Shown here piece after piece: positions 56,897 through 57,984 of a stretch of 64,000 nt of DNA. The stretch covers positions 124,001-188,000 of the forward strand of contig NZ_LR656168.1 in NCBI RefSeq assembly GCF_902168435.1. Direction: 5' to 3'. The notes below the pieces were generated by a model. It searched no databases. It worked only from the letters and a program-made list of their open reading frames with translations, and had not been told where the DNA came from. Origin of the DNA: Bacillus marasmi. GTDB lineage: Bacteria; Bacillota; Bacilli; Bacillales; Cytobacillaceae. The position numbers were made by a program, and so were the translations under genes. Numbering within the stretch: the first letter of the stretch is position 1; each line of letters starts with the position of its first letter.

Positions 56897-57220
56897 ATGA
56901 TAGGAGATCGTGTAAAAAGGCTTCGTCAAGAAAAGAAAATGTCATTGACAGAACTTGCTGACCAGGCTGGCGTTGCGAAATCATATTTAAGTTCTCTCGA
57001 ACGGAATCTGCAATCAAACCCTTCGATTCAATTTCTAGAAAAAATCGCAACTGTACTTGGCGTTTCTGTAGACTATTTCATCTTAGAAAGGCCAAACACA
57101 GAACAACTCGATAGTGATTGGGTTGATTTAGTAAAAGAGGCTATGGGCTCTGGGGTTACAAAGGAACAATTTCGTGAGTATCTAGAGTTTAATAAATGGA
57201 AAATAAATCAAAACAAATAA
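56897..57220 (+). CDS. sinR: SinR-type transcriptional regulator
   Basis: This 107-residue protein has an N-terminal HTH (MIGDRVKRLRQEKKMSLTEL, AKSYLSSLERNLQSNPSIQF) and a C-terminal SinI-like dimerisation segment (LDSDWVDLVKEAMGSGVTKE, QFREYLEFNKWKINQ). This is the arrangement of B. subtilis SinR, which represses biofilm matrix genes. It starts at an ATG after AAGGTG. It faces sinI, encoded on the opposite strand just downstream, and the two share no operon. Confidence 0.9.
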   Translation: MIGDRVKRLRQEKKMSLTELADQAGVAKSYLSSLERNLQSNPSIQFLEKIATVLGVSVDYFILERPNTEQLDSDWVDLVKEAMGSGVTKEQFREYLEFNKWKINQNK

Positions 57221-57245
57221 AAAGAGGCGTAGGCCTCTTTTTCAT
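57219..57245. terminator. Terminator between convergent sinR and sinI
   Basis: Stem AAAGAGGC / GCCTCTTT around GTAG is followed by TTTTTC on the plus strand; A-rich sequence on the other side serves the reverse direction. Confidence 0.82.
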
Positions 57246-57300: not shown

Positions 57301-57429
57301 TTAACCAACTTTTTTCTCTTGTAAAAATAAGCGAATTTCTTCCTTATCGATTCCCAGGTCTAGTGCTTCCAAAATTAGTTGAACCCATTCGATATCCAAC
57401 TCTTCAATTGATTTCAAATGTGTAGTCAA
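57301..57429 (-). CDS. sinI: SinI-family anti-repressor (42 residues)
   Basis: The TTG at 57429, four bases after GGAGGATC, opens a 42-codon frame beginning MTTHLKSIEELDIEWVQLIL and ending EIRLFLQEKKVG. It matches the SinI domain and the C-terminal part of SinR (compare LDSDWVDLVKEAMGSGVTKE). SinI forms a heterodimer with SinR and frees its target genes. Instead of preceding sinR on one transcript, it lies on the opposite strand downstream of sinR. Its own leader contains a c-di-GMP riboswitch. Confidence 0.88.
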   Translation of the reverse strand: MTTHLKSIEELDIEWVQLILEALDLGIDKEEIRLFLQEKKVG

Positions 57430-57450
57430 TTTTGATCCTCCATTTATTAT

Positions 57451-57545
57451 GTAGGAAGTCCAGCCATCTTAGTACATACTTTCTACATTGACGACCTTAG
57501 ATCTGTGACTTTGCGTCCCTATTTTTCAATAGGTTTGCCTTTATC
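57451..57545 (-). promoter_or_regulatory. Cyclic di-GMP-I riboswitch (GEMM) in the sinI leader
   Basis: On the minus strand the conserved blocks are in order: AAGGCAAACC, a GAAA tetraloop stem (CCTATT-GAAA-AATAGG), GGGACGCAAAG, GATCTAAGGTC (tetraloop receptor side) and GATGGCTGGACTTCC at the end. These match the class I c-di-GMP aptamer core. About ten bases separate the aptamer from the sinI ribosome binding site, so the platform probably controls translation. No terminator with a T-run is seen between the aptamer and sinI. Confidence 0.85.
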
Positions 57546-57599
57546 TAACTTTCTAGTTTTTTCTATTTTACATTGTTTTAGGTGAAAAATGTACACAAT

Positions 57600-57752
57600 T
57601 TTGTCAAATGTGTAAAAAATATTCTTACAATTTATGACACCATCATAATAAATTAGGCCTAATTTTTAAAAATAATACGAATAATTTCTACAAAAAATGG
57701 CTATATTAACCTATGTAAAAATAATCGAATAGTTGGTTGATTTCTTGTCGAA
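57600..57752. promoter_or_regulatory. Spo0A-box-like sites upstream of sinI
   Basis: TTTTGTCAAA (57599-57608, plus) and TTGTCGAAA (57745-57753, plus) resemble the Spo0A box TTTTGTCRAA. The first lies about 55 bases upstream of the aptamer on the sinI side; on the minus strand it reads TTTGACAAAA. In B. subtilis the sinI promoter is activated by phosphorylated Spo0A. No convincing -35/-10 pair was found. The A/T-rich sequence between 57560 and 57860 holds no gene. Confidence 0.5.
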
Positions 57753-57867
57753 ACTTATTTTTAAATCTTGTGAACTTTTTGTGTCTATTTTCAGAAAATT
57801 CCGATAAAATTATATTAACGACAACATAATACTATTAGCACTGTATTTATATCGAGGAGTGATGTTC

Positions 57868-57984
57868 ATGACTTTTTGGCATGTAGTTAACGTTGTTTTC
57901 CCTGTCGCTGCGATGGTTGGTTTCGGTTATTTTCTGGATCATGTTACAAAACCAGATGTATCTACAGAAGAAAGCCAAGATTAA
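57868..57984 (+). CDS. 38-residue single-span membrane peptide
   Basis: This short frame starts at an ATG after GAGGAGTG. It contains one hydrophobic helix, WHVVNVVFPVAAMVGFGYFL, then DHVTKPDVSTEESQD. It is followed by a terminator-like hairpin at 58009-58044, so it is a stand-alone gene. No family was recognised. It is divergent from sinI, and the two share the intergenic region of about 440 bp that carries the Spo0A-box-like sites. Confidence 0.65.
   Translation: MTFWHVVNVVFPVAAMVGFGYFLDHVTKPDVSTEESQD

Follow-up and report, generated by a model that had tools for sequence, protein, structure and literature searches.

A class I c-di-GMP aptamer before sinI in Bacillus marasmi and its relatives, and the translational ON switch it may form

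In Bacillus marasmi, the leader of sinI, the gene for the antagonist of the repressor SinR, contains a class I c-di-GMP aptamer. Far from being confined to this genome, the arrangement is usual in the family and occurs in other families of the class. The locus lies in a 64,000-nucleotide stretch of contig NZ_LR656168.1, called the window below. We consider it probable that sinI is driven by Spo0A~P and governed in translation by a c-di-GMP ON switch that frees the Shine-Dalgarno sequence, setting SinI against SinR. SinI and SinR form a textbook bistable biofilm switch, which in the B. subtilis view is driven by Spo0A~P, with sinI under Spo0A control.

In the mechanism we propose, sinI would be its own mRNA, made from a promoter upstream, the probable activator of which is Spo0A~P, and its leader would be a class I c-di-GMP riboswitch controlling translation. 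Without ligand, the aptamer bases C92 and C93 and the 3' strand of helix P1 would pair into the Shine-Dalgarno region and hide it. With c-di-GMP bound, C92 would touch the ligand, P1 would form, the Shine-Dalgarno sequence would be freed and SinI would be made, which would neutralise SinR. sinI would then act as an AND gate of Spo0A~P, at transcription, and c-di-GMP, at translation. If many relatives gate SinI translation by c-di-GMP in this manner, two global signals would be combined within some 40–60 codons, and conclusions drawn in B. subtilis would not carry over simply.

The sinI locus of the window

The SinR-type repressor is encoded on the plus strand (sinR, 56897..57220, 107 aa). It carries an HTH_3 domain and a C-terminal SinI-type domain (Pfam), and residues 1–105 align with the solved structure of SinR (PDB 1B0N_A, E 2.1e-36). 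Facing it on the minus strand is sinI (57301..57429), a short protein of 42 aa read from a TTG start, which scores 43.3 bits with PF08671 (SinI; cut-off 31.4) and aligns weakly with SinI in 1B0N_B (E 6e-4). With the NCBIfam equivalog NF046031 (AntRepSinIBacil) the ORF reaches 39.1 bits, below the cut-off of 80, and so it is a SinI at the level of Pfam that stands outside this equivalog. The convergent sinR and 42-codon sinI described in the first-pass annotation are thus borne out by the Pfam SinI model. Judged from the sequences, SinI would antagonize SinR in Bacillus marasmi. A terminator scan placed one terminator-like hairpin between the two genes (57219..57242, minus strand in the scan; shuffle mean 0.1), the T-run of which we read as present on the plus strand as well.

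Two further small ORFs deserve mention. A divergent ORF of 41 aa lies upstream of sinI (57859-57984), and Pfam and NCBIfam gave no family above cut-off for it. Elsewhere in the genome there is a second small ORF with a SinI domain (48 aa; L296 1952-2098, G000:C30), with no sinR-like ORF among the neighbours listed and with the genome's RF01051 matches not near it.

The first-pass annotation had placed a class I c-di-GMP aptamer in the sinI leader, and the Rfam covariance models agree. RF01051 matches 57451-57549 on the minus strand with 71.4 bits (gathering 35), and RF03167 matches 57450-57548 on the same strand with 62.6 bits (gathering 59) and the best E-value of the clan (2.1e-12). In a scan of the whole window the aptamer was the sole match at gathering level, one lower-ranked overlapping match of the same clan being omitted from the output. 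Overall the aptamer spans 57450..57549, with a GAAA tetraloop and a canonical pocket (the equivalents of G20, A47 and C92), and ends about 20 nt before sinI. The Shine-Dalgarno sequence GGAGG (57437..57441, minus strand) is separated from the aptamer by 8 nt and from the TTG by 7 nt. The C92 equivalent is at 57455 (minus strand); alignment A1 and the fold predict that it contacts the ligand when bound and joins an anti-Shine-Dalgarno helix when free.

The genome encodes 26 GGDEF domains, a large c-di-GMP network, yet has only two RF01051 riboswitches above cut-off. Some 400 nt downstream of the second (66.3 bits; L002, G000:C30:20537-20620, plus strand) are a 60-aa ORF and a 164-aa ORF, which we take to resemble a Flp-type pilin and a prepilin peptidase, respectively.

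Spread of the arrangement, the shared hairpin and Spo0A boxes

Of the 193 family genomes, 188 have a SinI-domain match and 189 an RF01051 match. For the comparison of loci we took the best SinI-domain locus from each of 110 genomes, 30 of them top-scoring and 80 hand-picked to span genera (hence not a random sample), plus the window, 111 in all. A covariance model built from 17 sinI aptamers (R1) scored at least 75 bits, the threshold for family loci, at 93 of the 110 loci besides the window (42/50 and 51/60), 16 of the 93 being in the model; weak matches at L069 and L132 were left out of the count. An aptamer with a sinI ORF directly downstream was present at 94 of the 111 loci, in 19 of 22 genera. 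The remainder comprised 12 loci with sinI and no aptamer and five with neither, two of these at contig ends. A sinR ORF accompanied 93 of the 94 aptamer–sinI pairs, 91 convergent and two on one strand. Rfam gave gathering-level matches in 18 of the first 20 family loci (14 RF01051, 4 RF03167). R1 also matched 69 of 80 named loci, in which only the aptamer was scored and many of whose genomes overlap the 111-locus set; the positives include Cytobacillus, Neobacillus, Mesobacillus, Robertmurraya and strains labelled Bacillus methanolicus and Bacillus infantis. Of the named relatives, Bacillus sp. DNRA2 (L146) is the nearest.

Among 398 genomes drawn from the class, 79 had a SinI match, and the matches listed from those 79 supplied a class set of 67 SinI loci. 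R1 matched 34 of these, 33 with a SinI ORF downstream on the same strand; in the other (L228) the aptamer is present and the SinI ORF absent by HMM. When 20 class loci were re-scanned with Rfam, 19 passed gathering and one (L248) failed. The 19 represent 15 families, and with f2, through three genomes of genus g28, the arrangement is confirmed by Rfam in 16 further families; families f5 and f41 come from R1 matches alone. In two of the g28 genomes (G370 and G389) the sinI riboswitch is the sole RF01051 match. One class genome (G225) has two SinI ORFs, each with its own aptamer (L241 and L265, R1 81 bits), and neither stretch holds a sinR ORF of at least 90 aa.

The order of the genes varies in the 33 class loci: riboswitch, sinI and sinR follow one another in 17, sinI and sinR converge in 13, and sinR is missing from the stretch in three. 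As the aptamer stays before sinI in convergent and tandem layouts alike, sinI is its constant partner. This comparative evidence makes a direct c-di-GMP input to sinI, as the first-pass annotation supposed, very likely.

The region between aptamer and start codon is conserved as well. Directly 3' of the aptamer, most family leaders contain the hairpin CCUGGAAUAC-loop-GUAUUUURGG or a near variant; its 3' arm extends into the G-rich Shine-Dalgarno sequence, and a T-run is absent. Its first C corresponds to C92, and the 3' strand of P1 follows, which makes hairpin and bound aptamer mutually exclusive. A near-identical hairpin, CCUGAARUAC-loop-GUAUUUURGG, is present in nine class leaders from seven other families (f2, f5, f8, f10, f13, f14 and f15), which speaks for common ancestry.

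Alignment A2 covers 90 of the 94 family leaders, 76 of them distinct, four leaders of genus g1 being omitted. On the 76 distinct rows, 94.9% of cells pair, compared with 28.5–57.2% in slid registers. The covariation score was matched by 1 of 500 shuffles, the number of cells changed on both sides by 17 and the further pair types by 27; two pairs are changed on both sides, a number reached by 130 of 500 shuffles and not above chance. In 88 of 94 family leaders, and in 23 of the 32 class leaders that could be parsed (L241 and L265 were not), C92 anchors a helix of 5 bp or more that reaches the Shine-Dalgarno sequence, and this helix beats shuffles at p≤0.05 in 78 family and 21 class leaders. The nine parsed class leaders in which no such 5-bp helix was found are L231, L233, L248, L249, L251, L264, L281, L290 and L293. 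The energy of the hairpin from C92 to the Shine-Dalgarno sequence beats mononucleotide shuffles at p≤0.05 in 90 of 94 family leaders. Across 58 distinct pairs, arms from the same leader give −5.1 kcal/mol, against −3.7 (s.d. 0.2) for exchanged arms, with none of 300 exchanges as good.

When the aptamer end is withheld from pairing, predicted openness of the Shine-Dalgarno sequence rises from a mean of 0.30 to 0.67, with a rise in 85 of 94 family leaders; removing a pairing partner tends to raise this value by construction. The rise exceeds 0.2 in 65 leaders and does not exceed that value in the other 29; nine of the 94 do not rise at all. The platform is a defined, testable RNA, and it would explain how sinI could be set apart from sinR in translation where both lie in one operon.

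Upstream of the aptamer are candidate sites for Spo0A, for which we assume the consensus TGTCGAA. The window has one exact box (57746..57752, plus strand), some 200 nt ahead of the aptamer when read in the sinI direction, and two sites with one mismatch, TGTCAAA (57602..57608, plus) and TGTAGAA (57686..57692, minus). Taken alone, these could be chance. An exact box is found in three of the four riboswitch-bearing members of the genus, at a shared distance in L067 (196 nt) and L019 (193 nt). Across the family, however, an exact TGTCGAA stands no more than 300 nt ahead of the aptamer in 35 of 93 loci, where a first-order Markov model expects 2.1; upstream of sinR the count is 4 of 93, with 2.15 expected. 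With one mismatch allowed, the counts are 87 of 93 against 43 expected before the aptamer and 44 of 93 against 49 before sinR. In the class set the box occurs at 5 of 34 loci. The Spo0A-box-like sites seen at first pass are therefore present and, in the family, enriched, which is consistent with binding of Spo0A ahead of sinI.

Strength, sign, level and ligand of the switch

A match to an aptamer model is no proof of regulation. According to one report, the Bc1 aptamer of B. thuringiensis showed no c-di-GMP response when transcribed in vitro, nor did the genes downstream of it track c-di-GMP in the cell (PMC11218506). An alternative for the window, which we regard as unlikely, is that the switch is decaying in its own genome, with an aptamer that still folds and a platform too weak to regulate. 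The platform is shorter in the window's genus. The hairpin predicted for the window, UCCUACAU-AAUAA-AUGGAGGA (57436..57456, minus strand), uses C92 and C93 of the aptamer and has one A.G mismatch; in the minimum free energy (MFE) fold it pairs UCCU with AGGA and CAU with AUG. It is weak (−2.2 kcal/mol from C92 to the Shine-Dalgarno sequence, shuffle p 0.055), its contiguous C92-anchored helix has 4 bp (p 0.34), and withholding the aptamer end lifts Shine-Dalgarno openness from 0.25 to no more than 0.42. The register CUUCC:GGAGG was discarded as the window's helix, being not favoured there (pair probability just 0.17–0.18); elsewhere in the genus its probability is 0.05 in L067, at most 0.01 in L066 and at least 0.99 in L019. 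Loss also occurs: among the five members of the genus that were examined, L009 has sinI and no aptamer, as do 12 of the 106 family loci with sinI.

Against decay, the window's aptamer and pocket are intact at 71 bits, and P1 is retained through a paired change, UAG/CUA for CAG/CUG. The MFE folds of all four riboswitch-bearing genus members (the window, L066, L067 and L019) contain an anti-Shine-Dalgarno hairpin that includes C92, formed by different pairs in each, and the exact Spo0A box described above is kept in three of the four. The platform mechanism is accordingly modelled with good support for the family and less for the window's own leader.

Decay would also fit the state of a possible SinR target. 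A search of the genome with PF12389, which we take to be the TasA family, with B. subtilis as control, gave no match, and we rejected TasA as the target of SinR here on this ground; the model matches in 94 of the 193 family genomes. The first-pass annotation had tied the locus to the biofilm decision: the direct c-di-GMP part of that proposal is very likely to stand, whereas the biofilm part is weaker in a genome with no match to the TasA model. In one relative (G025), where the aptamer scores 103 bits and sinI is convergent, no more than about 2.5 kb separates a PF12389 gene (G025:C1:1686601-1687185) from the SinR match, and the same proximity is seen in G001, G036 and G062.

If the switch works, its sign is likely to be ON and its level translation, as modelled from the folds. 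An OFF switch, in which c-di-GMP would lower SinI and leave SinR active, is improbable. Both signs are in print for B. thuringiensis, 'off' on mcpA and 'on' on cbpA (PMC7793685), and the window's openness of 0.42 with the aptamer end withheld is modest. In most family leaders, however, the helix that covers the Shine-Dalgarno sequence is built from C92 and the 3' strand of P1, the bases that the bound aptamer needs. Ligand binding would in this case dismantle the helix and favour translation.

The same hairpin bears on the level of control. Termination of transcription is the mode of many Bacillus riboswitches, and the platform, a hairpin, follows immediately on the aptamer as a terminator would. 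This reading is very improbable. The 3' arm of the hairpin reaches the Shine-Dalgarno sequence and the start codon and no T-run follows, which points to translation as the likely level and led us to reject a terminator platform. The terminator scan moreover found no terminator-like site in the interval between aptamer and sinI of the window, and in tandem loci a terminator before sinI would also cut off sinR.

The ON switch proposed here presupposes c-di-GMP as its ligand. Since the GGC variant RF03167 gives the best E-value, and cmscan assigns this model to the window and several relatives, another cyclic dinucleotide might be bound instead, a reading to which we give very little weight. RF01051 outscores RF03167 on the window in bits. 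We placed G20, A47 and C92 on alignment A1 by Vc2 numbering, and their equivalents are invariant, with a GAAA tetraloop in P2 and predicted P3 pairs, among the 17 sinI aptamers aligned there. Among 128 aptamers (94 from the family, including the window, and 34 from other families, counted by regular expression and by reading of 17 exceptions), A47 never varies, C92 is retained in 126 and G20 in 124. Position 47 of the window is A where the GGC consensus has G, and its other two pocket bases are canonical. c-di-GMP is hence the likely ligand, given the roles ascribed to these bases (PMC9049102, PMC11218506), and the GGC-variant ligand was set aside. Two sinI aptamers, in L083 (G067), where sinI and sinR share a strand, and L269 (G414), read A at position 20. 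An A at this position shifts preference to c-AMP-GMP.

Barely credible, finally, is a riboswitch that controls sinR in antisense, the mode put forward for a SinR homologue of Paenibacillus (PMC9943018): the convergent layout would allow it (seen in 91 of the 93 family loci that have aptamer, sinI and sinR ORF, and in 13 of 33 class loci), but a SinI ORF stands directly behind the aptamer, a terminator-like hairpin separates sinR from sinI in the window, and where the two genes share a strand (17 of 33 class loci) the aptamer keeps with sinI, its constant partner, and so we set this reading aside.

Known systems and the B. subtilis group

A predicted aptamer before sinI is already in print. For B. 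methanolicus MGA3, one sentence of the text and one entry in Table 4 list a c-di-GMP riboswitch before sinI (PMC4342826), the same aptamer class and the same gene as here; platform, sign, layout and conservation are absent from the available part of that report. In our searches of the open-licence literature, which leaves subscription papers outside its coverage, we found neither the platform nor its spread nor the remnant presented below.

In Paenibacillus sp. FSL P4, a c-di-GMP-I riboswitch lies opposite a SinR homologue, as in the window, and the available text reads it as acting in antisense on sinR (PMC9943018). In genus g51, which is probably Paenibacillus, 9 of 11 loci have an aptamer that faces sinR with a SinI ORF of 50–65 aa directly behind it. 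These nine are for this reason probably ordinary sense sinI riboswitches, and they offer another reading of the reported antisense case.

The c-di-GMP-I riboswitches of B. thuringiensis, for example Bc1, are of the same class and, in the parts available, serve other targets, namely motility and adhesion genes (PMC11218506, PMC7793685), and Bc1 uses terminators. The portion of the report available does not list sinI of B. thuringiensis as a riboswitch target, though its expression is up when a c-di-GMP synthase is overexpressed (PMC7793685).

Genus g26 belongs to the same family (f2) as the riboswitch-bearing g28. The SinI of one member (L274) aligns over all 57 residues with 1B0N_B, and that of L261 reaches 43 bits; from this closeness to B. 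subtilis SinI we take g26 to be the B. subtilis group. RF01051 found no aptamer at sinI in six g26 genomes, three of which have no match at all and three one elsewhere. With filters off, R1 gave at most 8.4 bits in L261, L262 and L274. The hairpin CUGAAAUAC-loop-GUAUUUUAGGAGG is kept in all six g26 leaders examined, and the simplest reading of these sequences is that the aptamer was lost and the hairpin retained.

The 20 nt before the hairpin resemble aptamer 3' ends at 15 of 20 positions in L274, 13 in L303 and 15 in L304, a likeness equalled by 2, 32 and 0 of 3,000 shuffles, respectively, which makes L303 marginal; two registers were tried on the six leaders and one matched. In all three C92 is replaced by G, and in L274 the R1 match itself (8.1 bits, E 2.9) sits on this segment. 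These leaders, which are similar to one another and not independent, are likely to hold a remnant of the aptamer 3' end; the same test gave no significant match in L261, L262 and L305. Hairpin-like sequence also precedes sinI in L071 and L133, and L132 has a very weak aptamer match upstream of sinI (17.4 bits); these are possible further remnants.

We are evenly divided on whether, across Bacilli, the SinI/SinR module has long had a translational c-di-GMP ON switch as a standard component, a state from which B. subtilis is derived by loss of the aptamer, with the hairpin as its fossil. The prediction that follows is that the B. subtilis sinI leader contains the remnant hairpin. Induction of sinI by 0A~P is reported (PMC12270306), and B. 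subtilis sinI–sinR (1B0N) is the same protein pair as that of the window, with the difference that the aptamer is missing at sinI in the six g26 genomes. If the proposal is true, B. subtilis would lack direct second-messenger input to SinR, whereas most members of the family studied here, and about half of the SinI loci sampled from other families, would have one.
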